DNA of 64,000 bases, taken from contig NZ_CDMW01000001.1 of the NCBI RefSeq assembly GCF_001078705.1, positions 2,225,541 to 2,289,540 on the forward strand, written 5' to 3'. The translations under genes were made by a program, and so were the position numbers. Each line of letters opens with the position of its first letter. Position 1 is the first letter of the stretch. The notes under the pieces are model-generated. The model was not told where the DNA came from, searched no databases, and saw only the letters and a list, made by a program, of their open reading frames with translations. The stretch is from Streptococcus sanguinis (lineage in GTDB: Bacteria; Bacillota; Bacilli; Lactobacillales; Streptococcaceae). Of this stretch, positions 5,678 to 48,749 are shown in pieces.

Positions 5678-6766
5678 TTATACTACGCATTCAGCTAAGC
5701 GGATAAGGAATTTACGGTCGATACGGCGAAGAAAATCAATGATGTCATCTGAAACAGTATCTCCGGCATTCAGGATAACTCCTCCATCTGCATTAACAAG
5801 GTCTTTTTGCAGTGTTTTGCCTACTAGAAGACGTTTTTGCCGATCGATAAAATCGTTAACAGCTTTCTTTGCTGCTGACTCTTCTTCAGCAACTGGAGCT
5901 GTGCTGATAGTTGTTTCTACTTCCTCAGCAGGAGCTGCCAATACTTCTTCCAAAGCAGCATCCAGACTCAGCGCTGCATCTGTTTCTTCAACTTCTTCTT
6001 CAGCTGGAGCTGTTGTTTCTTGTACCAAGTCTTGAACTTCTGGTTCTTCTGCTGTCTCTACGACTGCTTCAGAAAACTCCAACTCAGGAGAAGCAGCTCC
6101 CAGACCTACAGCAGCCAAGGCCTCTGTCAAATCTGTCGCAACTTCTTCTTTTACATCTACTTTTTCATCTACAACTGGCTCGAATACAGGTGCTTCAGCA
6201 ACTACTTCCTCAATTTTTTCGGCAGGTTTTGCAGCTTCAGTCTCATGGAGCAGATCTGCTGCAGCCAGACGGCCCATCTCTACATCTGCTTCAAGATGAG
6301 GAGCTGTCTTTTTTTCATCATTGAGGATGATATACTCTTTACCAATCATCAAGATGCGTGATTTAGGAATCTGAATTTCCTCGCTGGCATCTTCAGAATT
6401 AACCACCAAGTAACCAATTTCATTCTTTTCGTCAATATGATAGTCAACAACAGTTCCCACCTTGTTTCCATCAATTGTGATAACAATTTCGTCAAAGACG
6501 CTACCCTGCTTGTCGTTCAAGACCTTCAGATCAGCCTCTTCCAACTCTTGAAAAACTGAGCTATTTTCTACCATGACCGCAAAGTCACCGATGCCTTGGA
6601 TGTTCTTGCTAGACAGCAAGGCAAAAGGCTGTTCAGACTGCTTTGACTTAATGACAAAAGTCAGATTGACCCCCTCGTCAACAAAGACTTCATGGACTTC
6701 ACCCAGTCCCATCCCTTTTTCAATCTCAATGACAACGGTCCCTGTGATTGTTTTACAACTTTTCAT
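5678..6766 (-). CDS. PRC-barrel protein with acidic linker, pil locus
   Basis: 362-residue protein without a signal peptide or membrane segment, hence probably cytoplasmic. The N-terminal 155 residues look like two PRC-barrel-like repeats (TVVIEIEKGMGLGEVHEVF and IVITIDGNKVGTVVDYHID). A long Glu/Ala/Val-rich low-complexity region (about 170-300) follows, then a C-terminal helix pair ending in FLRRIDRKFLIRLAE. PRC barrels often act as adaptor or assembly modules. RBS AGGGGAAATT. The acidic linker also dominates the next upstream gene product, which suggests the two proteins act together. The pil gene letter used in the literature is uncertain to me, so none is given. Confidence 0.72.
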   Translation of the reverse strand: MKSCKTITGTVVIEIEKGMGLGEVHEVFVDEGVNLTFVIKSKQSEQPFALLSSKNIQGIGDFAVMVENSSVFQELEEADLKVLNDKQGSVFDEIVITIDGNKVGTVVDYHIDEKNEIGYLVVNSEDASEEIQIPKSRILMIGKEYIILNDEKKTAPHLEADVEMGRLAAADLLHETEAAKPAEKIEEVVAEAPVFEPVVDEKVDVKEEVATDLTEALAAVGLGAASPELEFSEAVVETAEEPEVQDLVQETTAPAEEEVEETDAALSLDAALEEVLAAPAEEVETTISTAPVAEEESAAKKAVNDFIDRQKRLLVGKTLQKDLVNADGGVILNAGDTVSDDIIDFLRRIDRKFLIRLAECVV

Positions 6767-6821
6767 AATTTCCCCTAAAACCCTTCTAATTGATTACAAT
6801 CAATTGTATGTTTATATAGTA

Positions 6822-8534
6822 TTAATTTTTCACGATTTTGTCCAGCATGTTGAACGCTTCTTGACGAAGATTTTGATCTGAACTGCCTTGGACAATTTCT
6901 TTCAGATAGTTCTCAGCTTCTTGAACTGCATTAGAAGCCAATAATTCCTGACTTTCCAGTAGGAGGAATTGGAAATAGACTTCTTTATCTCCCGCAGTTG
7001 CTGCAGCTGGTCTTGCTTCTGCCGCTTCCTCAGCCTTGAGGATGTCAGTGATTTTCTGAAGCAAATCTTCTTCTGTCTCATCTGTAGCCGGAACGACCGG
7101 AGCAGCTTTGACTTGTGCTTCCTCAGCTTTGAGGATGTCAGCAATTCCCTTGAGCAAGTCTTCTTCTGTTTCATCTGCAACTGCTTCTTGGATAGGCTCA
7201 GCCTGTGTCCAAAGTGCGTCTTCAGAAACTGATTGAACAACTGCTGGTTCAGCGGCTGCTTCAAACTCAAACGTTTCTGATGCAGGTTCGAAGCTACTTT
7301 CTTCCTCCCAAGTCTCTGCGACTTCAGCAGTTAAATCTTCCTCTTCAGATCCCAGCAAATCATGCTGAATCTGGCTGAGAATATCTTGATAACCCTGAAT
7401 ATCAGCGCGATCACGGCTAACCATAGACTCTTCAGAAGCAGAAAATTCTGGCTCTGATGCAGCTTGACTGAAGGCGGAATCCATTTTAGCTTGTGGCTCA
7501 GTGTCTGAGTCAGCAAAGAAGAGAGATTCTAAGCTGTTTGCTGTTCTTGACTCTTCTGCTCTAACTGGCTTGATATCTCCCGTAGCAGCAAAAACATCTT
7601 CCAGGCTGTTGCTTACTTCTTCTGCCACTGGCTGCTGAGCTTGTTCTTGCTCAGTAAAGAATTCTTCCTCATCTTGAGAAACAACACCTGTCACCTCAAC
7701 CGCCTGCGGTCTGAAGTTGCCATAGCTAGACTCCGTATAGGACATCGGTCTAATCTTAGACAGAACAGCAGTCTCAAAGGCTGGATCATCTATATCTGTA
7801 TAGCCTTGATTGCCGGCTGCATTTGCTTCCGTAGGCTGAATCATAGAGTTGGCCACCTTAATCTTAGTAGAGCCCTTGCGATGATGAAGCAGAGACTGCA
7901 GAAATTCATCATTGGCTTTTTGTGAGCTGTGTTCCATACCCACCATACCGACCTCAGCTGCCGCTAGCTGACTGTTTGGCTCGTACTCTCCAAAGGCAGG
8001 AGCCGTAGCCAAATTATCAACTGGGTAGAGAGGTTTTACTTTCTCAAATCTTGTCATATCCTTTTTGATTGAACGCTCTGCCAAGGTGCGGCCAGAAGCA
8101 GATACTCTCTGCCTTACCGGACTTTCCTCAGCCTGAACCCTTTCTTTACTTTCCTTTCTCATCCCACCGGTTGAAGCATTGGAAAAGTTCAAATCTCTAG
8201 CGATTGACAAGCTTGCTTCCTTAGCTTCCACTTTCTTCCGCGAGATCTTAGCATGCTTCTGGCTTCTGCTTCGCGTAGAAGCAGTTGCTTTTTTCTTGAC
8301 CGGAGCTAGCTCCTGTGAAAAGAGCAGCACCATATAGACAGCCAAGGCCAAGGCACAGAGTCCAACAAAGGCTATGCCGGGAACTTGTTGAAAGAGGAAT
8401 GGAGCACCAATCGCAAATAGCATGACCCATACTACGAGAAAAAGGCGCTTTATTAAAGAAATCCTAGAAACAAATAAAATGCTAATCGTATGCAGCGCTA
8501 TAAGCCCTGCTCCAAAAGGTAAAAAATATGCCAT
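6822..8534 (-). CDS. Membrane protein with very long acidic cytoplasmic region, pil locus
   Basis: About 570 residues. The N-terminal 85 residues form two to four membrane segments, followed by a Lys/Arg-rich stretch (KKKATASTRSRSQKHAK) and some 400 residues of acidic, low-complexity sequence. Near the C-terminus a repeated segment (ADETEEDLLKGIADILKAEEAQ and ATDETEEDLLQKITDILKAEEA, both about 20 residues) precedes a tetratricopeptide-like helical tail (FQFLLLESQELLASNAVQEAENYLKEI). No enzyme signature seen. The start is unclear: ATG at 8534 lacks a close ribosome site, and a GTG eight codons upstream (8558) is possible. Probably a scaffold linking the pilus machine to the membrane; inference from position. 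Confidence 0.68.
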   Translation of the reverse strand: MAYFLPFGAGLIALHTISILFVSRISLIKRLFLVVWVMLFAIGAPFLFQQVPGIAFVGLCALALAVYMVLLFSQELAPVKKKATASTRSRSQKHAKISRKKVEAKEASLSIARDLNFSNASTGGMRKESKERVQAEESPVRQRVSASGRTLAERSIKKDMTRFEKVKPLYPVDNLATAPAFGEYEPNSQLAAAEVGMVGMEHSSQKANDEFLQSLLHHRKGSTKIKVANSMIQPTEANAAGNQGYTDIDDPAFETAVLSKIRPMSYTESSYGNFRPQAVEVTGVVSQDEEEFFTEQEQAQQPVAEEVSNSLEDVFAATGDIKPVRAEESRTANSLESLFFADSDTEPQAKMDSAFSQAASEPEFSASEESMVSRDRADIQGYQDILSQIQHDLLGSEEEDLTAEVAETWEEESSFEPASETFEFEAAAEPAVVQSVSEDALWTQAEPIQEAVADETEEDLLKGIADILKAEEAQVKAAPVVPATDETEEDLLQKITDILKAEEAAEARPAAATAGDKEVYFQFLLLESQELLASNAVQEAENYLKEIVQGSSDQNLRQEAFNMLDKIVKN

Positions 8535-8555
8535 TTGAATATTTTCGACACCCCC

Positions 8556-8823
8556 CACTTTCTAAATGATATTAAACTTTTTCAATGCAAAACCAGTCTT
8601 GATTTTGTTTTTCCATAAACTCCATTAAAACCCAAAATAGACTCGGGCGTCTATTCTGAGTTTGCTTGTATTATACTTCAAATATCTCTATGTTTTAGTT
8701 TACTATAAATGCACCGTGAATACTAGTCTAATAACTTGGTTTTTAGCATTTTTTTAAGAAAAAATTTAGTCATGCTCTTCAAATTTTAAACCATAGACTT
8801 ATTTGGTATTTTTTCAAAGTGTT
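8556..8823 (-). promoter_or_regulatory. Internal promoter region with early hairpin
   Basis: The only sizeable gap inside the pil run (about 265 nt). On the minus strand a TATAAT -10 (8670-8675) is followed within about 10 nt of the expected start by AATAGAC-loop-GTCTATT (8636-8655) and TTTTGGGTTTT. This reads either as an internal promoter whose RNA starts with a hairpin, or as an attenuator separating pilF-to-pilO from the downstream genes. No good -35 is visible. Confidence 0.45.
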
Positions 8824-10410
8824 TTAGCTAACCACCAAGTTATTCACAGATAGGTTATCCAGCTTCATAGTCGTTTCAGGACTTTCTCCGCTAGGAGTTT
8901 CAAAGTAGTAACCCACAATAGTCATTGGATAGCTGAATCCTGGAATGTTTTCAGGATCGAAGCTAACTTCGCGCCAGCCAGTCCAGCTGTTAGGACGAAT
9001 GACGTGAAGATAAATCTTCTGACCGCTGGCATTCTTGACAATCAAGCCAATCTTGCCCTGCCATTGATTAGACAGAGATAGAGAGAAGCTGATAGCATCC
9101 GGCTTATTGTTCAAGGATACATACGGTGCTGCAAATTCCATTTCATACATGGTAGAAGACTTGGTTGCTGGAATCTTAACCACGTTGGAACCTGAACCCT
9201 CTAGGAAGTCCGTATTGTCAACTGTCACATCATACTGATTGCTGCCGCCTGACTGAGTCAGCTTAAGAGGTGACTCGAAGCGGTAGATAGTTGATGAATT
9301 GTAATAAGCTGACAGACCATCGTTCCGACTAGACTGAGTGCTAAGCTGCTCCAGATAAGATGGAGCCAGATTGGTACTGCTGTTAGCATTCGCGCTGCTA
9401 GTTGTATTGGTTGTTGCGCCCCCCAAACTGCCCTTATTGCCAGTTGCATCAGTGCCGCCACCAGCTGTCGTTACAGATATAGAACCTGCCTGCCAAGTCG
9501 GAATGGCAAATGGAGACTGCCAGTTAGCAAACTGAATCGGTGTCTTATCGACATTGCTCTCTAAGGTCACATAGCGCTCAACGTCTTTAACCTGATAGAA
9601 ACGCAGCTTGATTTTACCGCTGGTCAGATCAGGGTTTTTGTTTTCCTCCGTGCTAGATAGGCTTTTCTTTCCGCCCAATTCCAGCTCACTGGAAACGATT
9701 TTTTGTTGATTGCCATCAATCAATTCCAACAATTTCAGAACCTGTGTATAAGTTCCTTCGAACTCAATGTCTGCTGTCATCTGCGTGATGTTAGTATTAT
9801 TGGTCGTTCCGTTCCCTGGTGTCGCTGTGTTAGCTGCAGTTGTTGTTGCAGTATTGGCGTCTGATGAAGAGCTGCTGCTTGTTGACGATGAAGACGATGT
9901 ACCAGACGAACTAGAGGTCGTACTGGATGAAGAAGATGTCTCATTCGAGCTTGAGCTGCCAGTCGTATCAGAAGAGTTGGAGTTTTGCCCCTTGGACGAA
10001 GTCGCAGCCAATCCCTCCTGCTGGAGTTCCAACTCTGTGCTCTCAGTGTAGTTGACAGACTTGAATTTAATACCGCTTTCGTTGACCAACTTGTCAATCA
10101 AGAAGATGAACTCCCCTTGATTGGTCGTACCATAGTATTTCTTAGCCTGATCCAGAGTCTTAGCATTCAAAGTTTGGAGCTGTTTGGTAAGAGACTTCCT
10201 CTGACTAATCTTGGCATTCTTGCCTTCCAACTCTGTCGAGATAGTTGCATGTTCTTCAGCTAACTGCGCCATCCGTGTATAAGAATTTGTTACCAGATAC
10301 CCTCCACCAGCAAGTACCGCTACTCCTCCGACACAGGCCAACAATTTCTTGTCACGCTCATTTAAATTACTCAGGATTTTTTTCTTTTCTTTCTCATTTT
10401 TGCTCTTCAT
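8824..10410 (-). CDS. pilO: PilO-type alignment protein with extra C-terminal beta-sandwich domain
   Basis: 528 residues, more than twice the usual PilO length. Order: cytoplasmic Lys-rich end, one membrane segment (about 23-42), coiled-coil (about 45-110) and ferredoxin-like PilO core. A Ser/Thr/Asn-rich linker (about 135-210) interrupts the core. A second T/N/G-rich linker (about 315-345) leads to a C-terminal domain (about 365-528) with a pattern like carbohydrate-binding jelly rolls (YRFESPL..., WTGWREVSFDP..., GYYFETP...KLDNLSV). It overlaps pilN by 17 nt, implying translational coupling. PilN/PilO dimers link PilM to the pilus; the added domain could contact wall glycan, which is inference. 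Confidence 0.82.
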   Translation of the reverse strand: MKSKNEKEKKKILSNLNERDKKLLACVGGVAVLAGGGYLVTNSYTRMAQLAEEHATISTELEGKNAKISQRKSLTKQLQTLNAKTLDQAKKYYGTTNQGEFIFLIDKLVNESGIKFKSVNYTESTELELQQEGLAATSSKGQNSNSSDTTGSSSSNETSSSSSTTSSSSGTSSSSSTSSSSSSDANTATTTAANTATPGNGTTNNTNITQMTADIEFEGTYTQVLKLLELIDGNQQKIVSSELELGGKKSLSSTEENKNPDLTSGKIKLRFYQVKDVERYVTLESNVDKTPIQFANWQSPFAIPTWQAGSISVTTAGGGTDATGNKGSLGGATTNTTSSANANSSTNLAPSYLEQLSTQSSRNDGLSAYYNSSTIYRFESPLKLTQSGGSNQYDVTVDNTDFLEGSGSNVVKIPATKSSTMYEMEFAAPYVSLNNKPDAISFSLSLSNQWQGKIGLIVKNASGQKIYLHVIRPNSWTGWREVSFDPENIPGFSYPMTIVGYYFETPSGESPETTMKLDNLSVNNLVVS

Positions 10411-10975
10411 TGAAATCTACATCCTTCGTCAAAATTTTAATGTTAAACTTGTACACTGTATTGTTATCCTTTTCCTCGCGAGTAATGTTATCCACAAAAA
10501 TATGGTTAAACTTCTCAGACTTACGAAGCTCTTCCTCAAACTTAGCGATAGAAAGATGCTCTTGAGACGAACCATTGATTTCTACATTGTCGTTATTAAT
10601 CTTGATATCGTCAAAGACCAGGTTCCGTGTCACGTTTTTATTAAGGAAGTCCATAAAGGCTTTGTTTACTCGGTGCAGGCGGCGGAAGTCGCCTTCTAGG
10701 CTTGTAAAGAGAAGCTCGTCATTCTTGACCGTTACAATCTTATCTTCAGTCTCAGAGACTGCCTTCAGCTCTTGAGCCATTTCTGGACTCTTGAGCGTCT
10801 GCTCCGCACGGTCAATCTCGCCTTGGAGGTGCATAGCGCTAAACTGGAAGAAGCCAATCAGCACAATCATAATCGCTACAATCCCAGCAAAAGCGGAAAT
10901 AGCAGCAAGTTTCAGTGGACTAGCCTTAGCCGGTGCCACATGATATTTTGAAAAGTAGTTTAAATCTCTCCGCAT
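10394..10975 (-). CDS. pilN: Type IV pilus alignment protein PilN
   Basis: 193 residues: short cytoplasmic N-terminus, membrane segment (about 23-48), coiled-coil and a small alpha/beta domain (VFDDIKINNDNVEINGSS...), the usual bitopic PilN layout. It pairs with PilO outside the membrane and binds PilM inside through its first residues (MRRDLNYFSKY). The start ATG overlaps the pilM stop region by one base and its 3' end overlaps pilO. Confidence 0.88.
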   Translation of the reverse strand: MRRDLNYFSKYHVAPAKASPLKLAAISAFAGIVAIMIVLIGFFQFSAMHLQGEIDRAEQTLKSPEMAQELKAVSETEDKIVTVKNDELLFTSLEGDFRRLHRVNKAFMDFLNKNVTRNLVFDDIKINNDNVEINGSSQEHLSIAKFEEELRKSEKFNHIFVDNITREEKDNNTVYKFNIKILTKDVDFNEEQK

Positions 10976-12387
10976 TAGTTCGCTCTCCTAATCAACATGG
11001 CTGTAGCCGGAATGAACTCCGCATTAAACTCGGCAGAACCTTCCCACAGTACATTCTCATAATCTACATTATCAATTGAGATGAATTCCCGATTCATGTT
11101 CTGCTTCAAAATAGATGCCAACTGCCAACAGATGTCCTGGTCCCCAAAGACATAGAAACTGTCAATGTTGAGACCGGTTGATCCGCTGAAGAAATTTTCA
11201 GTATTGAGAATGTGGTTCTTAGCATCAGCCACCCACTCATCCAAGGCCCTCTTCAAGAGACCTGTATCCAGATCATCTGAAGCCACTGCTGGAAGCTTCT
11301 GCAAAAGACTAGCATCGTCTGCATAGCTCAGGATGTCCTTGTAGCCACGATTGAGATAGTTGCTGGTCACAAACTTGCCTTCTGAGTAGAGATAAACACC
11401 AATGAAGCTCTTGCTCAGATGTACCATGCCGACATTTTCCTTGGTCAGCTTCTTGGCACGATTGTTAATCGCTTGTACGCGTTCCAGCCATTTTTCAAAG
11501 GTATTAGACTGAAGGTCAAAGACATAAGGTGTCAGCTTCAAATTCTCAGCCAAGCCCAGATATTGCTCTACCACGCCTTTTGGCACAGCATAGACCATGA
11601 GTGAGCGAGTATCTTCATCAAGCGGAAAAGCTGAATTAGACTCTTGCTCTTGGAACTGGATAACATAAGAAGTCGGATCAATATCCAGATATTGCTGGAG
11701 CTCGTAAGATACCAAGCCCTCAATATCCTCATCATTCTGCACACTAGCTGCCACATCAACCGAACGGGCGATGATATTGGTATTGCCCAGAGCAAAGAAA
11801 GCGTACTTAGCAGTGATCGCATGCTGCTCCATTAGGTCACTGATAATATTTTTGAGAGTAATCGGGTCGATAATCTCACTATTCAGTACAACACCTTCTG
11901 GCAGATTAGCAGATGCCATCTTGATAATCTCCAGTTCATTGCGCTTTTGTCTAGCAACAACCAGATAGACTGATTCGTCAGTGAAGTCAATGGCCATCAG
12001 ATTGCCCTTAATTGGCTTGCCAAACATCGTGTAAGGTGCATGCATTCTAGTGACCGGTTGGCTCGCCGCACCACTGCCTTTCTTAGCAAAGAGCGAGCGA
12101 TTACCAGACTTAGCCGGCATATCATCACTGCCACTATTCTTAGAAAAGAGCGGCTTGTTGAGCTTGGTTAAGAAGCTCCCTTTTGCCGTTGACTTTTCCT
12201 CATCGTCAAAGTCTTCTTGACGATCTGACTTGATCTGAACTCCTTGAATAGATAAGTGTTCTTTATGTTTCCCTTTTGATGAGAAGAGCGGTTTATTTAA
12301 TTTTCCTAAAAATGAGCCTTTTTTCTCATTATCTTCTTCGTCCAGAGCTCTTCTGCGCCCCTTGGACGAAAACATATTTTTTGCCAT
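10975..12387 (-). CDS. pilM: Actin-like pilus protein PilM with duplicated N-terminal motif
   Basis: 470 residues. The C-terminal 340 form the actin/FtsA-like fold of PilM (GNLMAIDFTDESVYLVVAR at the first phosphate-loop strand; FFALGNTNIIARSV; LSKSFIGVYLYSEG). Unlike Gram-negative PilM it has about 125 extra N-terminal residues carrying the motif KGSFL.KLNKPLFS twice and a degenerate third copy (NRSLFAKKG). PilM is the cytoplasmic ring partner of PilN and the ATPase. RBS AGGAGATT. The repeated motif could bind the unusual PRC-barrel or acidic proteins of this locus; inference only. Confidence 0.9.
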   Translation of the reverse strand: MAKNMFSSKGRRRALDEEDNEKKGSFLGKLNKPLFSSKGKHKEHLSIQGVQIKSDRQEDFDDEEKSTAKGSFLTKLNKPLFSKNSGSDDMPAKSGNRSLFAKKGSGAASQPVTRMHAPYTMFGKPIKGNLMAIDFTDESVYLVVARQKRNELEIIKMASANLPEGVVLNSEIIDPITLKNIISDLMEQHAITAKYAFFALGNTNIIARSVDVAASVQNDEDIEGLVSYELQQYLDIDPTSYVIQFQEQESNSAFPLDEDTRSLMVYAVPKGVVEQYLGLAENLKLTPYVFDLQSNTFEKWLERVQAINNRAKKLTKENVGMVHLSKSFIGVYLYSEGKFVTSNYLNRGYKDILSYADDASLLQKLPAVASDDLDTGLLKRALDEWVADAKNHILNTENFFSGSTGLNIDSFYVFGDQDICWQLASILKQNMNREFISIDNVDYENVLWEGSAEFNAEFIPATAMLIRRAN

Positions 12388-41005: not shown

Positions 41006-41051
41006 AAACAGGGTGTACGAAACCAAAAGAGGTTCTGTACACCCTGTTTTT
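41006..41051. terminator. Bidirectional terminator
   Basis: AAACAGGGTGTAC.. / ..TGTACACCCTGTTTTT long stem between the convergent tetR and ketoacyl synthase genes. Confidence 0.88.
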
Positions 41052-41052
41052 A

Positions 41053-41997
41053 TTATAATTTCATAGCCAACATATTGACTGTCATACCAGCTGCTGTTCC
41101 CATCAGAGCGATGGTGTCTCCTTCCTTTACTAGATTGCGCTCCAGAGCATAGCAGAGAGAAAAAGGCACTGCCACTGACACCATATTACCATAGTCTTGC
41201 ACGAGATTGAGGTATTTATCATCAGGAATACCCAAGCTGCGCATGACCATTGGCAGAGCACGACTCGCCTGATGCGGAATGATATAATCCAGGTCAGATA
41301 GGCTGAGACCACTCTTTTCTTTAAATTCTTTAAACATTTCCGGAATTTTTCTGGCAGAAAGCAAGAGAATCTTCTTGCCATTCATGTCAAACATGTAGTG
41401 AGTCTTGGTAGCATCCGAATACTCCTTAGGCTGAAAAGATGTCAGACCACCGCGAATCTCTGTATCGTGAGCTCCTTCAGACCAGGTCCGCTGCAGGCTG
41501 GAGATAACCCCTCTCTCTTCCTCTGTTGCTTCAAAAATCAAAGCAGCCGCTCCATCACTGAACAACTCAAAACTTTCCTTCTGATTAGGATTGAGGCCCA
41601 GGCTTCCAACCTCACTGGACACGATGAGGATCCTTTGATACTCACCAGCCTCCAACAAATGAGACATGAGACTCAAAGCAGAGATAAAGCTGGTGCAGGT
41701 CGTATTGATATCCATGGCTGGAATGGACAAGCCCTTGGCCACCAACTCATGAATCAGGGCCGCTGTGCAAGGAATAGGCTGAACGCCCACTGCACTGGCC
41801 GATACGATGCAGTCAACATCTTTGATAGTCAAGCCCGCTTGCTGCAGGGCTTTTTCAATCGCCTTAACAGCCATAGAAAGCTGGGTTTCTTCATTTTCCA
41901 CCACTCGATAACGGGTCTGATCCTTAAAAGTCACAGTATTTCTAGGTAGATGCGTACCGTAACCAACAATCTTTATATGATTCTTTACTGCTGTCAT
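41053..41997 (-). CDS. 3-oxoacyl-ACP synthase III-family (FabH/OleA-like) enzyme
   Basis: 314 residues with the thiolase fold. Catalytic triad visible: Cys101 (DINTTCTSF), His242 (IPHQASRA), Asn271 (DYGNMVSVA). FabH makes acetoacetyl-ACP, but housekeeping fabH in streptococci lies in the fab cluster, so this is a second, pathway-specific enzyme that may condense acyl-CoA/ACP units (OleA style) or transfer acyl groups. Last gene of a four-gene minus-strand operon; 100 nt separate it from the ligase gene. RBS AAGGAGTTTA. Confidence 0.88.
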   Translation of the reverse strand: MTAVKNHIKIVGYGTHLPRNTVTFKDQTRYRVVENEETQLSMAVKAIEKALQQAGLTIKDVDCIVSASAVGVQPIPCTAALIHELVAKGLSIPAMDINTTCTSFISALSLMSHLLEAGEYQRILIVSSEVGSLGLNPNQKESFELFSDGAAALIFEATEEERGVISSLQRTWSEGAHDTEIRGGLTSFQPKEYSDATKTHYMFDMNGKKILLLSARKIPEMFKEFKEKSGLSLSDLDYIIPHQASRALPMVMRSLGIPDDKYLNLVQDYGNMVSVAVPFSLCYALERNLVKEGDTIALMGTAAGMTVNMLAMKL

Positions 41998-42097
41998 ATT
42001 AAACTCCTTCTTGTCAGACTTGGGGCTTCTCGGCAGCTAGGTAAACTGCCAAAGCACTTCAGCCTCTGATTCATATATTTTTCCACTTGGGGCATTC

Positions 42098-43357
42098 TTA
42101 AGCCCGATAGATGCGTTTCAACTTACGGCTTCTGTCCCGCTGATAATCTTCAAAAGAAATAGCCGGCATAAGAAATCTTTTATCAGTCGCTAAGTTTTGA
42201 AACTGCTGGACAATCTCGTCTTCTCGCTGCTGACTACGATGTTCGATAGCAATGGTCAGCGAATGGTCCTGCTTCTGAGCTACCTGGTATTCTCCAATCC
42301 CATCAACTAAGAGCAGGCAGCGGCGGATAAAGTCTGGAAAGATCTCCACCGACTGACCTGCGGCATTTTCAAAAATGAAAATATCATCCGAGCGCCCCTC
42401 GATTCTGTCAATCCGTGTAAAGACCGAACCGCAGGGGCAAGGTTCAGGATTTTCCACCAAGATATCATTCAGCTCATATTGAAAAATTGGCTGAGAAGTC
42501 CGCTTGAAATCCGTAATTATTGGATAAAATCGCCTATCATCCAAGTAGCGTTTATCTATATGGACAATGTCTTCGTTTAGATGAAGATTCCCGTAAGCAC
42601 AACTGCAAGCTAGAAAGCCCTCAGTCGCTTGGTAGACCTGATCCACCATTTTCAGACCAAATCCTGCTTGAATCCTCTGCCGATCCGGCTCTTCTAAAAT
42701 CTCTGCCACCGATACGACTTTGCTAGGGGCAATTTTCAAATTTCCTGCCTGGACTTGTTTAGCCAGATCCAAGAGCATTGACGCTGGAGCCACCAAAATC
42801 GTCGGCTGGTAAGCATTCAAGCGCTCTACATGTTCTTCAGCCCTCTGAAAAGTATCAAAATACTCCAAAGAAATCAATCCTGAATTGACAGTCTGATAGA
42901 GCTGGTTATCTGCCCGAAGAAAGAAGGCTATTTTGTGCCCAAAGAGTTTGCCTGTAGGCAGCATCTTGGCCAAGATGGCTGCCGCCCACATACTGCGCTC
43001 CTTTTCAGTGGTGACAAACAAGCCTCGGTGACCAGATGTCCCTGAAGACAGGCCGACAGCAATTTCTCCTATCATGGGACTGAAATCACGTGTCCGCTCG
43101 CTCTCAAGTGCCAAGGCTAACAACTCATCTCGATCCAGCCCCTGAGTATTGAGCTCATTGAAATGCTCCATCATAAAGGCCTTATTCATCTTAAAATCTA
43201 CTGGAATACCTGATTTGAAATAAGGTGATTCCTGCTGCAGAAATTCCCGATAGGTCTCTAAAGCCTTGACTTGATAGCTTTCCAGGGCCTGTCGATCTTT
43301 AAATCGATGCCCCCAGCGCATGACGCTAAAGGTTTTTAGAAATGTTCCTAGTTTCAT
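42098..43357 (-). CDS. PaaK/F390-synthetase-like adenylate-forming enzyme
   Basis: 419 residues. ANL-like features: SSGTSGHRG (104-112) as the phosphate-binding loop, QATEGF (243-248), Cys-rich CSCAYG and CPCG (307-310), RIEGRSDD near the hinge. Likely activates a carboxylic acid as acyl-AMP; substrate unknown. The start MKLGTFLKTF uses GGAG 10 nt upstream and overlaps the MBL gene by 32 nt, showing tight coupling. In Ole pathways an ANL enzyme (OleC) closes a beta-lactone, but this one belongs to the PaaK-like branch. Confidence 0.83.
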   Translation of the reverse strand: MKLGTFLKTFSVMRWGHRFKDRQALESYQVKALETYREFLQQESPYFKSGIPVDFKMNKAFMMEHFNELNTQGLDRDELLALALESERTRDFSPMIGEIAVGLSSGTSGHRGLFVTTEKERSMWAAAILAKMLPTGKLFGHKIAFFLRADNQLYQTVNSGLISLEYFDTFQRAEEHVERLNAYQPTILVAPASMLLDLAKQVQAGNLKIAPSKVVSVAEILEEPDRQRIQAGFGLKMVDQVYQATEGFLACSCAYGNLHLNEDIVHIDKRYLDDRRFYPIITDFKRTSQPIFQYELNDILVENPEPCPCGSVFTRIDRIEGRSDDIFIFENAAGQSVEIFPDFIRRCLLLVDGIGEYQVAQKQDHSLTIAIEHRSQQREDEIVQQFQNLATDKRFLMPAISFEDYQRDRSRKLKRIYRA

Positions 43358-44153
43358 ACAAAATCTGCTCCGCTCTCTCAGCCGGATCATGACTGACTAG
43401 CACCTGATAACCGACAGCAAGTAACTGTCGAAGCAAGGCCACACCAGCCATGTATTCTTCCTTGTTATCCTGCATTAGTGACGGCAAGAAACGCATCTGC
43501 TCCGTATAAGGCAACAGATCCACGCCCCAGCACAAATCAGCTCCGATAAACAGATGATAATCTGGCAAAAAGAGACAAGCTTGACCAGCGGCATGGCCAT
43601 CAACTGAGGCCAGATATATACTTCCATCCCCAAACAAGTCAACTGTCTTGCGATAGAGGAATTCTGCTTGGACCTGCTGAGGTTCCACCACTTCCAACCG
43701 ACTCTCAAAATCCTGCGGAAGAAATTCCTTGAAAATCAAATCCTTAAGCTTGGCATGCTGATAAGTTTTAAAAACGGTCTTGGTCAGAATGAAGCGGGCC
43801 TTGGAAAAGAAAGCAGATCCGCCGATGTGATCTGGATGCAAGTGCGACAAGATGACATAAGAAATCTCTTCTAGCGCAATTCCTTTTTTCTCAAGCAGCC
43901 GATCTACACGCTCCTCTTCTGACATATCTACAGGCGTTCCCAGACCATAGAGCCAGTATTTGAGCTTGGGCTTCAGAATAGCTGGAGAATAGCCAGTGTC
44001 GTAGAGAATATAGCCTTTCTCACGATGCTTCAAGAGGAAAACACCAGCTGGAAAAATCATTTTTTTCTTGGTAACTCCCTTAAACATCTGCTGCAAGTGA
44101 CTGCTACAGCGCCCAGGCTGAAGATACTCAATTTTCTCGATAATGTTGGACAT
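43326..44153 (-). CDS. MBL-fold metallohydrolase (lactonase-like)
   Basis: 275 residues from MSNIIEKIEY. Metal-binding set visible: HLHPDH (H104, H106, D108, H109), His in VDGHAAGQ, Asp in GADLCW, His in LVSHDP, the arrangement of dizinc AHL-lactonase/glyoxalase II-type enzymes. It may hydrolyse a lactone or thioester made by its operon partners. Overlaps both neighbours in the operon. Confidence 0.87.
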   Translation of the reverse strand: MSNIIEKIEYLQPGRCSSHLQQMFKGVTKKKMIFPAGVFLLKHREKGYILYDTGYSPAILKPKLKYWLYGLGTPVDMSEEERVDRLLEKKGIALEEISYVILSHLHPDHIGGSAFFSKARFILTKTVFKTYQHAKLKDLIFKEFLPQDFESRLEVVEPQQVQAEFLYRKTVDLFGDGSIYLASVDGHAAGQACLFLPDYHLFIGADLCWGVDLLPYTEQMRFLPSLMQDNKEEYMAGVALLRQLLAVGYQVLVSHDPAERAEQILYETRNISKNL

Positions 44154-45105
44154 ATTTTGCAATCCCTTCACTGATTGTCAACTTGGGTTGATAGCCCAAA
44201 TCCCTTACTGCTGCTGATATATCCAGCGTTTGACTGTAACGCATTAAGTAATAAGTGTAAAGAGTCAGAGGAGGCTCTTTTTCAATGTTAAAAAAGCGAT
44301 AAAAGCTTTCAAACCCCTGTGCCAGAAGACCTAGAAAAGCAGCAGGCAACTTAATATAACGTTTACGAACCTGTAAACCTTCCAAAGCTTCATCCAGCAT
44401 ATCCTTGAAACTACGGGATTCTCCGTTGGTAATGTTGTAAACCTGTCCTTGCGCTTCTGGAATTTCCAAAGCCAGTCGAACAGCCAAGGCCACATTTTCC
44501 ACACAGGTCATGTCCATCATTTGCTGGCCATTTCTGATAAGTGGAATCGCCAGTTTTTGACTTAAGCGCAGAATCCTAGGAAAGATACTGGTATCTCCAA
44601 TACCAAAAAGCCCTCTAGGACGCAAGATAACAGATGGAACTTGAGGATAGCTTCGGACAATCCGCTCAGCCATGAGCTTGCTTTTGATATAGAAATTCAG
44701 CTCATTCTCCTGAGGAGCAGCCTCTTCTTTGATAGCAAGTTGGTCACGCGCGGCAGCATAAACACTCGGAGAGGAAATATAGACCAGTCGTTGCACTCCA
44801 AAATGTCGGCAGGCTTCCATAACCAACTTGGTTCCTACTACATTGGTCTGATAAAACTGCTCCCATGGTCCCCAAATCGTTGAGAGAGCACCAGCGTGCA
44901 CCACTGCATCCACTCCTTCGCAGGCTGCAAAAATTTCTTCTTCTCTGGTAAAATCTCCAGCAAAAAACTCTACTAAAGGACCTTCTAACTGCCGACCAGC
45001 CTTCAGATTACGACCAAAAGCCCGCACCTGATAGCCTTGTTCAGCCAGCTCTTCAACAACATACCTTCCTAGAAAGCCAGTCGCTCCTGTCACTAGAACC
45101 TTCAT
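44128..45105 (-). CDS. NAD(P)-dependent extended SDR (3-beta-HSD/OleD-like)
   Basis: 325 residues from MKVLVTGATG (RBS AAAGGAG); a longer frame starting near 45159 includes the promoter and is rejected. Rossmann motif G7xxG10xxG13, catalytic Tyr139/Lys143 (YIKSK) and ISSPSVYAA. Extended SDR of the 3-beta-hydroxysteroid dehydrogenase group, which includes OleD (2-alkyl-3-keto acid reductase). First gene of the operon. Confidence 0.87.
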   Translation of the reverse strand: MKVLVTGATGFLGRYVVEELAEQGYQVRAFGRNLKAGRQLEGPLVEFFAGDFTREEEIFAACEGVDAVVHAGALSTIWGPWEQFYQTNVVGTKLVMEACRHFGVQRLVYISSPSVYAAARDQLAIKEEAAPQENELNFYIKSKLMAERIVRSYPQVPSVILRPRGLFGIGDTSIFPRILRLSQKLAIPLIRNGQQMMDMTCVENVALAVRLALEIPEAQGQVYNITNGESRSFKDMLDEALEGLQVRKRYIKLPAAFLGLLAQGFESFYRFFNIEKEPPLTLYTYYLMRYSQTLDISAAVRDLGYQPKLTISEGIAKYVQHYREN

Positions 45106-45147: not shown

Positions 45148-45153
45148 ATTATA
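45148..45153 (-). promoter_or_regulatory. -10 of the SDR-MBL-ligase-KAS operon
   Basis: TATAAT on the minus strand, about 43 nt before the SDR start; no convincing -35, so an activator may be needed. Confidence 0.4.
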
Positions 45154-46231: not shown

Positions 46232-46954
46232 TCACACTCCTAAAATCTTCAGAATCTCCTGCTTGTATCGCAGCTTCTGCAGTTCCTTATCCTCGCTGTC
46301 TGACCAAGTCAGTTGGAGATCTGCAACGATTTGCCCAGGGCGATTTTTCAGAATATAGATACGGTCGCTGAGAGCCAGAGCCTCTTCAATACTATGCGTG
46401 ATGAGAAGAGTCGTCAGACCCAGCCTACGATGAATGTCCAGATACCAAGTGTGTAGCTCCATCTTGGTCAGCTCATCCAAGGCACTAAAGGCCTCGTCTA
46501 GAAGAAATAGCTTGTAACCGAACATATAGGTCCGTAGCAGTGCCACGCGCTGCCGCATCCCCCCGCTCAGCTCATGTGGATACTTATCTGCCACATCAAA
46601 GAGCCCGAACTCCTTCAAAATCTGAGTTGCCTGCTCCGTCGCTTCCTTTTTGGATACTTTTCGGATTAGCAGGGGTAAGATGACATTGCCCAACACCGTC
46701 TTGTACTCCAGCAGCAAGTCCTTCTGCAGCATATAACTCACCCGGCCCTTGGGATTTTCCTGCCCGTCTAGGACAATCCTACCCGACTGGACCTCCAAAA
46801 TCCCCGCAATCAGATTAAAGAGGGTCGTTTTCCCGACTCCACTAGGCCCCAAAATCGCTACGACCTGGCCTGCTTCTACTTGTAGGCTGATATCTTTCAA
46901 AATCTGCTGCTCATCATAAGCATAACTTACATTTTCAAGTTTAATTTCTGTCAT
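46232..46954 (-). CDS. thiZ: Thiamine-precursor ABC transporter ATPase (ThiZ)
   Basis: 240 residues. Walker A GPSGVGKTT, Q-loop, ABC signature LSGGMRQR, Walker B LFLLDEAFSALDE, H-loop THS. Nitrate/taurine/pyrimidine subfamily. Start overlaps the binding-protein stop by one base. Confidence 0.9.
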   Translation of the reverse strand: MTEIKLENVSYAYDEQQILKDISLQVEAGQVVAILGPSGVGKTTLFNLIAGILEVQSGRIVLDGQENPKGRVSYMLQKDLLLEYKTVLGNVILPLLIRKVSKKEATEQATQILKEFGLFDVADKYPHELSGGMRQRVALLRTYMFGYKLFLLDEAFSALDELTKMELHTWYLDIHRRLGLTTLLITHSIEEALALSDRIYILKNRPGQIVADLQLTWSDSEDKELQKLRYKQEILKILGV

Positions 46955-47952
46955 TATTTTATATAGTCGTTGCTAAATCCCTTGTCACTCAAGTCATTGT
47001 CCACGATACCCTTATCCTTGGCCCATTTGTAAAAGGCATTCCAGCGGCTAGCCTCAAACTGACCCCACTTGTCCTTATCTGATGCATATTGCTCGGACAA
47101 ATATTTTTGAGAAGCCAAAACAAAGTCTCGTTTGTTCTTCAGCTCTGGCGCATGCTTGATTAAAATATCCGCTGCTTCTTCAGGGTGCTCCATGGCATAT
47201 TGATAGCCCTTCTTGATAGCCTGCAGGACCTTTTTCGCTTCATCCGGATTCTTCTTCAGATAGTCATTATTAGCAATAATCACTGGAGAATAATAGTCAA
47301 ACTCCTTGACATAGTCCTTCATGTAAAAGAAATTAGTGTCCATGCCTTGCGTCTCTGCCATGATGCCGTCCCAGCCATGATAAATCCACGCTGCATCAAA
47401 CAAACCATTTTCAATCGGCGTAATGGAGTTGGAATCGTTGTTGGGAACTTTTTCCACTTCATCAAACTGGCCGCCTTGGCTTTCAACCAAAGTTTTGAGC
47501 ATGCCTAGCTCCACCGGATCATTCCAGGTGCCATATTTCTTCCCAGCTAGGTCCTTAGGTCCAGTAATCCCTGCAGACTTCTTGGAAATAATGCCCGAAG
47601 TATTGTGCTCTACAATAGCGGCAACAGCTGTGATTTCCGCACCCTTATCCAATTTTTTAGCCATAGAGTCCTGGAAATAAATTCCAAAAGGAGCCTTGCC
47701 GTTGATAATCAAATCCGAACTGCTATCTTCAGGCGGCAACTTGATATCCACATCCACGCCTGCTTCCTTGAAGTAGCCTTTTTCCTGAGCCACATAAAGG
47801 CCGGTATGATTGGTGTTAGGTGACCAGTCTAGGATAAAATCAATCTTTTTATCCTTCTTAGCTGACTCCGAGTCTGACTGACTGCAAGCCGCTAGACCAA
47901 AGATAGACACAGCAGCCAAGCCTGCCAGCAACACTTTATAACTTTTTTTCAT
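46954..47952 (-). CDS. thiY: Pyrimidine-precursor binding lipoprotein (ThiY, NMT1/THI5-like)
   Basis: 333 residues. Lipoprotein signal, lipobox LAAC (Cys23), then an NMT1/THI5 domain (FILDWSPNTNHTGLYVA, GYFKEAGVDVDI, PFGIYFQDS). The family binds formyl-aminopyrimidine or HMP salvaged for thiamine synthesis. ATGATG start with GAGGATA; the second ATG has better spacing. Under a TPP riboswitch. Confidence 0.92.
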   Translation of the reverse strand: MKKSYKVLLAGLAAVSIFGLAACSQSDSESAKKDKKIDFILDWSPNTNHTGLYVAQEKGYFKEAGVDVDIKLPPEDSSSDLIINGKAPFGIYFQDSMAKKLDKGAEITAVAAIVEHNTSGIISKKSAGITGPKDLAGKKYGTWNDPVELGMLKTLVESQGGQFDEVEKVPNNDSNSITPIENGLFDAAWIYHGWDGIMAETQGMDTNFFYMKDYVKEFDYYSPVIIANNDYLKKNPDEAKKVLQAIKKGYQYAMEHPEEAADILIKHAPELKNKRDFVLASQKYLSEQYASDKDKWGQFEASRWNAFYKWAKDKGIVDNDLSDKGFSNDYIK

Positions 47953-47996
47953 CATTATCCTCTTTTCTTTCTTTGGAAAATAGCAGAGCTGAGCTC

Positions 47997-48749
47997 CTAT
48001 TTCCACTTAATGACATATTTTTCACTGACAGCCACCAGCTTCATCCCCAGAAGACTGATAACCGAAACCAATATGATAATAGCAAACATGGTGTCGTACT
48101 GGAAAAGCTTCTTAGACTGGATCATATAAACACCCAAGCCTTCAAAACCACCCAGCCATTCGGAAACCACAGTCGTGATGAAGGCATAGGAAACACTGAC
48201 GCGCAAGCCCGCATAGAAATAAGGCAAGCTAGCTGGAATCTTAAAATGCCAAAGAATCTGCCAGCGATTGGCCTGCATGAGCTCAAAGAGAGTCAAGGTG
48301 TCTCGGTCACAATGCCGAAAACCGTCCAGAATACTGACGATAATCGGAAAAGTCGTCGTCAGAATAATGAGCACAATCTTGGGCAAAATCCCATATCCCA
48401 GCCAGAGAACCAAGATTGGCGCCAAAGCAATGGTCGGAATAGTCTGTACCACGACCATCATGGGGTAGATTAGATCATTGAGCCAGCTCATGCTGTCCAT
48501 CAGGACAGCTAAGATACAGGCCAAGATCAACCCCAAGAACAAACCCAACAAGGCTACTTTTAAGGTGGCCCAGCTATGAGTTGCCAGGAATCCAGCATCT
48601 CTCATAAAAGCCTGACAGATTTCCAGGGGTGTCGGCAAGATAAACTTGGGCAAGAGCTTGAGCCAGCCCATGACCTGCCAGATGACAAGTACACCCAGCA
48701 TCCCTAAGAGACCGATTTGCTGCCGCATCAGCCTTTGTAGTGCTTTCAT
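47997..48749 (-). CDS. thiX: Thiamine-precursor ABC transporter permease (ThiX)
   Basis: 250 residues, six membrane segments, BPD_transp_1 fold with the EAA-like loop FRHCDRDTLTLFELMQANRW. First gene of the operon after the riboswitch. RBS GGAGGAAAA. Confidence 0.92.
   Translation of the reverse strand: MKALQRLMRQQIGLLGMLGVLVIWQVMGWLKLLPKFILPTPLEICQAFMRDAGFLATHSWATLKVALLGLFLGLILACILAVLMDSMSWLNDLIYPMMVVVQTIPTIALAPILVLWLGYGILPKIVLIILTTTFPIIVSILDGFRHCDRDTLTLFELMQANRWQILWHFKIPASLPYFYAGLRVSVSYAFITTVVSEWLGGFEGLGVYMIQSKKLFQYDTMFAIIILVSVISLLGMKLVAVSEKYVIKWK

Follow-up and report, generated by a model that had tools for sequence, protein, structure and literature searches.

A 64,000-nucleotide stretch of the Streptococcus sanguinis genome (the window; C1:2225541-2289540 of a single-contig genome of 2,308,610 bases) contains an operon of four genes encoding, in order, a short-chain dehydrogenase (SDR), a metallo-beta-lactamase-fold hydrolase (MBL), an adenylate-forming enzyme (ACS) and a FabH-superfamily ketosynthase (KAS). 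We think it rather likely that a dedicated pathway is built around these genes, condensing acyl chains and leading, in streptococci, to a glycosylated product. The four-gene set probably builds a fat-derived molecule, to which sugar would be added by enzymes of a second, distant gene group. An acyl-derived small molecule had already been proposed for this operon; the dedicated, co-conserved gene set and a second KAS III in the genome agree with that idea, while the OleA-type condensation that it invoked does not hold.

Conservation of the four core genes

One search of named genomes, for which ACS served as query, returned 53 relatives in 52 distinct loci, and all 52 loci present SDR, MBL, ACS and KAS in that order, with SDR split into two pieces in one locus (L024; L and G numbers are our labels for loci and genomes) and KAS split likewise in another (L052). 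Among these loci are metagenome-assembled genomes (MAGs) of Eubacteriales (L045), Lachnospiraceae (L049), Clostridia (L050), Streptococcaceae (L051) and Bacilli (L054). The same core order recurs in 30 loci from a Streptococcus scan. The ACS family model, TIGR02304, scored over its cut-off in 39 of 147 Streptococcus genomes, 67 of 398 Bacilli genomes and 9 of 398 genomes of the phylum; wider DNA was fetched for 20 of the 67 Bacilli, and the four core genes were together in every one. Pairwise distances of the four core proteins correlate (r 0.886-0.939 for 31 rows and 465 pairs, uncorrected for kinship). The original prediction had staked its case on the four families being conserved together, and this is borne out by the named loci.

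Two of the phylum matches (L118 and L119) carry an ACS-like gene of TIGR02304 type alone, the other three core genes not being nearby. There, the TIGR02304 protein is followed by a membrane protein that resembles an acyltransferase by eye (8554-11152 and 8252-10871, respectively), an arrangement that looks like another use of this ligase family.

The window operon itself has neither carrier protein nor transporter, as first described, yet in the distant relatives L049 (10217-14136) and L054 (10211-15879) KAS is directly followed by an acyl carrier protein (ACP), then by acetyl-CoA carboxylase parts, FabD and FabF. These two stretches showed no FabG, FabZ or enoyl reductase. The added genes point to malonyl-ACP chemistry.

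A different architecture, KAS-ATP-grasp-SDR-MBL-ACS, was found in 24 loci, mostly from Bacillus- or Paenibacillus-like genomes, and a GNAT-like gene is present in 14 loci. A KAS of this type (L160) passes model PRK07204 (558.9 bits, cut-off 402) and the ATP-grasp protein passes PRK06849 (486.9 bits, cut-off 406); the GNAT label of the Bacilli gene falls just under its cut-off (21.9 bits against 22). One streptococcal genome, G033 (L122), is mixed and combines a short KAS with an ATP-grasp and a GNAT-like gene. In L166, a second ATP-grasp stretch (5876-7030) follows ACS, besides the usual one before SDR. This version of the operon goes beyond the original prediction. So do two features described below, a glycosyltransferase and a second operon unlinked to the first.

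Catalytic residues and selection

The catalytic residues listed in the original prediction are correct. These and the further residues of the following list do not vary in any of the 31 aligned rows: C101, H242 and N271 in KAS; the SSGTSG motif (104-109), E246, D298 and K412 in ACS; H104, H106, D108 and H109 together with H187, D206 and H255 in MBL; and Y139 and K143 with the GxxGxxG motif in SDR. The four core genes are under purifying selection. No internal stop occurs across seven S. sanguinis loci, and in comparisons with these loci omega is 0.02-0.05 for KAS, 0.04-0.10 for SDR, 0.07-0.17 for ACS and 0.11-0.22 for MBL, that is, 0.02-0.22 in all 28 gene comparisons.

Identity of the core enzymes

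The best NCBIfam model for KAS is PRK07204 (NF005541), with 289.3 bits and thus below the cut-off of 402; FabH models come next. Against the fabH model TIGR00747 (cut-off 292.1), the window KAS reaches 162.8 bits, whereas the FabH of the genome's fab cluster passes with 355.5 bits. This cluster lies elsewhere in the genome and comprises, as named by eye, FabM- and FabT-like genes, FabH, ACP, FabK, FabD and FabG. Housekeeping FabH is thereby ruled out as the identity of the window KAS, in agreement with the original prediction; rather than the only fabH of the genome, the gene encodes its second KAS III.

Is the KAS then of OleA type, as was first proposed? OleA-type enzymes are recognized by a catalytic glutamate (E117 in OleA, E105 in PpyS) that reaches into the active site of the partner subunit. 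PpyS E105 corresponds to V94 of MxnB and CorB (PMC4578411). CorB V94 aligns with Ile75 of the window KAS, and the position is Ile or Leu in 31 of 31 rows. The OleA reading fails on this ground, and sequence comparison also places OleA well behind MxnB, CorB and FabH: the best PDB sequence matches are MxnB and CorB, with 147.5 bits for MxnB against 62-66 bits for OleA.

The window KAS belongs to a short architecture (304-320 amino acids, against 330-359 for the long one) whose rows form a single clade in the KAS tree (100/100). An 18-column stretch is missing in 13 of 13 short rows; in 16 of 17 long rows it holds a Trp, which sits where the genome's own FabH has the motif EWISSRTGI. This Trp/Arg motif of FabH binds CoA.

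For SDR the best NCBIfam model is OleD, so the likeness originally suggested stands as a best match, but its 208.5 bits are far below the cut-off of 580. The nearest model for MBL is the lactonase AttM (71.8 bits, cut-off 390); neither this model nor that of AiiA (45.7 bits, cut-off 375) is passed. Its structure model has a lactonase fold, and both this fold and the metal ligands (HxHxDH plus H, D and H) match those of lactonases, which supports the predicted lactonase type. PqsE was not listed among the structural matches of the MBL model, which excludes nothing. ACS passes TIGR02304, the model of an F390 synthetase-related protein, with 553.2 bits (cut-off 251.9). This is the sole NCBIfam model over its cut-off, and no OleC model is among the matches listed; ACS has no Pfam match.

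A second operon with glycosyltransferases

Outside S. sanguinis, 41 of 45 named loci have a GT1-like glycosyltransferase gene (UGT) immediately ahead of SDR. The four exceptions are L050 and L051, where another GT1-like gene adjoins, and L049 and L054, where there is none. In the seven S. sanguinis loci, rpsD occupies the place of UGT. The window genome has a single UGT homolog (C1:1200847-1202127), which shares 43% identity with the linked UGT found in S. infantis. It closes an operon whose four genes overlap, SDRc-GT21-c11-UGT, and which lies about 1.06 Mb away from that of the window. The complete series SDRc-GT21-c11-UGT-SDR-MBL-ACS-KAS is contiguous in L121 (G129, same genus) and in L152 (G618, from a different family within the order), and c11-UGT-SDR-MBL-ACS-KAS is contiguous in L045, from a different order of bacteria. 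The contiguous eight genes of L121 and L152 imply that the S. sanguinis-type genome holds an eight-gene set split in two.

The top NCBIfam model for SDRc is mycolate reductase (101.2 bits, cut-off 380), although other SDR models outrank it in L152. Mycolate reductase and OleD both reduce 2-alkyl-3-oxo acids, and the best models of SDRc and SDR thus hint at a branched 3-hydroxy acid. In c11, S128, D178 and H197 are invariant in nine of nine rows and follow the alpha/beta-hydrolase order; by this residue pattern c11 is a probable alpha/beta hydrolase. It has no PDB match (best E 0.7, to a glutaredoxin) and no consistent Pfam match.

Co-occurrence of ACS and UGT

Among the 147 Streptococcus genomes, ACS is found in 39 and UGT in 39, both being present in 38 (Fisher p 6.6e-33, uncorrected for kinship, as is the tally throughout). 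Four weak or fragmentary UGT matches (G036, G043, G127 and G130) were set aside; with them included, the co-occurrence table reads 38, 1, 5, 103. The UGT of G077 has broken frames and was counted as present. L205 (G077) and L024 (an S. infantis draft) share their breaks in UGT, SDR and cardiolipin synthase, which may be sequencing errors.

The only ACS genome without UGT, G033, is the one carrying the ATP-grasp/GNAT version. The only UGT genome without an ACS match, G134, has a complete SDRc-GT21-c11-UGT operon (L199, G134:C1:390000-408000), so that the two halves can part. In the 39 ACS genomes, UGT is linked (within 5 kb) in 26, is solely unlinked in 12 and is lacking in one. Both linked and unlinked copies are present in G137 and G038; G131 and G024 retain mere fragments of a linked UGT (L201, 6521-6969, and L202, 5295-5489) beside an unlinked operon that is intact (L200 for G131). 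In G127 (L203, G127:C49, 7581-9736), UGT fragments directly precede a cardiolipin-synthase-like gene of the kind that usually follows KAS, and the four core genes are absent, which looks like deletion of the operon in that lineage.

The c11 and GT21 genes occur in an identical set of 15 of the 147 genomes, which fall into few lineages; 14 of the 15 have ACS (Fisher p 1.4e-8, again without kinship correction). Of the 398 Bacilli genomes, eight have c11, seven of them among the 67 with ACS (hypergeometric 2e-5); the eighth is G134.

Proposed pathway and alternatives

From the gene content and order, the catalytic residues, the selection and the co-occurrence with UGT, we infer the following substrates, steps and product. 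KAS would load an acyl chain on Cys101 and join it by Claisen condensation to a second chain, malonyl- or 3-oxoacyl-, giving a 3-oxoacyl product. The MBL hydrolase would open a lactone or cleave a thioester and so release this product in acid form. The OleD-like SDR would reduce the 3-oxo group to a hydroxyl, ACS would adenylate the carboxyl group to prepare it for transfer, and a sugar would be attached to the hydroxyl by the GT1-family UGT. In genomes of the S. sanguinis type and in certain others, UGT would come from the second operon, along with a membrane glycosyltransferase, another reductase and the probable alpha/beta hydrolase. A biosynthetic rather than a degradative role is suggested by the presence of a ketosynthase and of glycosyltransferases, as well as by the ACP, carboxylase, FabD and FabF genes after KAS in L049 and L054.

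Several points weigh against this proposal. All functions are assigned by homology, with SDR, MBL, UGT and GT21 far below curated cut-offs. Neither c11 nor GT21 is found in 25 of the 39 ACS Streptococcus genomes; the GT21-c11-SDRc trio, present in 14 of 39, is therefore not a general requirement. No UGT of this kind lies near the core genes in L049, L054, L122 or the 24 ATP-grasp loci. The co-occurrence and distance tests ignore kinship. Finally, the two operon promoters have no common same-strand motif of at least 9 bp. A 9-mer, TTCATATAA, common to both promoters in opposite orientation was taken as chance in A+T-rich DNA.

A bolder reading, which we advance tentatively, is that of a widespread, undescribed class of Bacillota natural products. 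An MxnB-like KAS would fuse two acyl chains to a lactone without a modular polyketide synthase (PKS), the lactonase would open it, and the OleD-like reductase and the F390-synthetase-like ligase would finish the molecule. Tailoring would differ by lineage. Streptococci would add sugar, and Bacillus- and Paenibacillus-like genomes would use ATP-grasp/GNAT enzymes for acyl or amide chemistry; some gut MAGs would have their own ACP and malonyl supply, and oral streptococci would keep two unlinked operons.

We regard as unlikely a pyrone route, in which a KAS like MxnB or CorB joins two chains, one of them 3-oxoacyl, to an alpha-pyrone that MBL opens before reduction, activation and glycosylation. 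The sequence matches of KAS favor these two enzymes, but Foldseek puts a FabH first and FabH rows lie within 2 Z units. The KAS tree, where 33 rows including MxnB and CorB separate from three FabH rows with support 100/100, holds no OleA row and has long branches that meet, and the loci contain no modular PKS.

Less likely still is a pathway resembling OleABCD, where KAS would join two fatty acyl chains head to head, SDR would reduce the 2-alkyl-3-oxo acid, ACS would close a beta-lactone and MBL would open it. The presence of an adenylating enzyme, the lactonase fold of MBL and the best models of SDR and SDRc would all suit this scheme; against it stand the lack of the OleA glutamate, the low OleA scores, the SDR score below the OleD cut-off and the assignment of ACS to TIGR02304, with no OleC model among the matches listed.

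A catabolic or detoxifying set, with MBL opening a foreign acyl lactone, ACS activating the acid, and SDR and a thiolase-like KAS degrading it, is very improbable: the fold of the acyl-homoserine-lactonase type and the acid-activating enzyme beside it would fit, but the Cys-His-Asn type of KAS, the adjoining glycosyltransferase and the additional genes of L049 and L054 argue for synthesis, and the operon has no uptake gene.

Genomic context

The coordinates (Table 1) confirm the four intact, overlapping or closely spaced minus-strand genes originally described at 41053-45105. SDR and MBL overlap by 26 nt and MBL and ACS by 32 nt, while 100 nt separate ACS from KAS. The nearest named relatives of the four genes are in S. 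sanguinis loci, at 93-99% protein identity.

Table 1. Features of the operon and its flanks, in window positions
Feature	Position	Strand	Basis
SDR: extended short-chain dehydrogenase, OleD/3beta-HSD-like, first gene of the operon	44128..45105	-	OleD model; Y139/K143 and GxxGxxG
MBL: metallo-beta-lactamase-fold hydrolase, acyl-homoserine-lactonase type	43326..44153	-	
ACS: adenylate-forming enzyme, F390 synthetase-related/PaaK-like	42098..43357	-	TIGR02304
KAS: FabH-superfamily ketosynthase, short clade; nearest solved relatives by sequence MxnB and CorB	41053..41997	-	
13-bp perfect inverted repeat between KAS and the convergent TetR gene	41006..41049	.	read directly from the sequence
TATAAT, possible -10 box of the operon promoter, between rpsD and SDR	45148..45153	-	read directly

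The operon lies downstream of rpsD and is convergent with a TetR-type gene (P0005). This TetR was rejected as a local regulator, its gene being convergent rather than upstream and showing no evidence for control. The inverted repeat between the two is a probable two-way terminator; its loop exceeds the limit of the terminator scan, which did not list it. No -35 hexamer matches the TATAAT box, which the promoter scan did not list either, and both scans performed at chance level (promoters, 6 found against 6.6; terminators, 4 against 4.0). Upstream of rpsD, ABC transporter genes (by eye, a substrate-binding protein, a permease and an ATPase) occupy 46232-48749. Genes of these three families also neighbor the operon in L010 and L031, suggesting that the shared location is old.

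Significance and comparison with known systems

We found no account of this pathway in an open-access collection, which lacks most subscription papers; PRK07204 was not covered by the search. The enzyme families are all known; it is their combination, a predicted acyl-condensing KAS III pathway, that is undescribed there. Streptococcus sanguinis and bacteria of the mitis and parasanguinis groups commonly live in the mouth, and their known specialized chemistry consists mostly of peptides and nonribosomal peptide synthetase or PKS products. Eight genes at two places, from co-occurring families with clear catalytic residues, are here predicted to make one glycosylated acyl product. This gives a testable question on the role of the four core genes, on the function of TIGR02304 and on the PRK07204 ketosynthases. 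It also cautions that searches for contiguous gene clusters overlook split pathways.

The OleABCD olefin/beta-lactone pathway likewise brings together a FabH-superfamily KAS, an OleD-like SDR and an adenylating enzyme, with a possible lactone step. Here, however, the OleA glutamate is absent, SDR scores below the OleD cut-off, a PaaK/F390-like ACS replaces OleC, a lactonase-type MBL stands in place of the OleB hydrolase, and glycosyltransferases are added. With housekeeping FabH, the window KAS has the fold and the Cys-His-Asn triad in common; it differs in its score, in its location outside the fab cluster and in being the second KAS III. MxnB and CorB, the alpha-pyrone ketosynthases of myxopyronin and corallopyronin, rank first and tied-third for KAS by VIA and also have a hydrophobic residue at the OleA glutamate position, but identity is 27-29%, no modular PKS is present, and the short-clade KAS lacks the 18 columns around the FabH Trp/Arg motif. 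The N-acyl homoserine lactonases AiiA, AttM, AhlX and GcL have the fold and all metal ligands of MBL, which is about 20% identical to them and below the AttM and AiiA cut-offs. In rhamnolipid synthesis by RhlA-RhlB, a small hydrolase-like protein stands beside a GT1 glycosyltransferase and handles a 3-hydroxyacyl product; the adjacency of c11, a putative hydrolase by its Ser-Asp-His pattern, and UGT resembles this pair by description.
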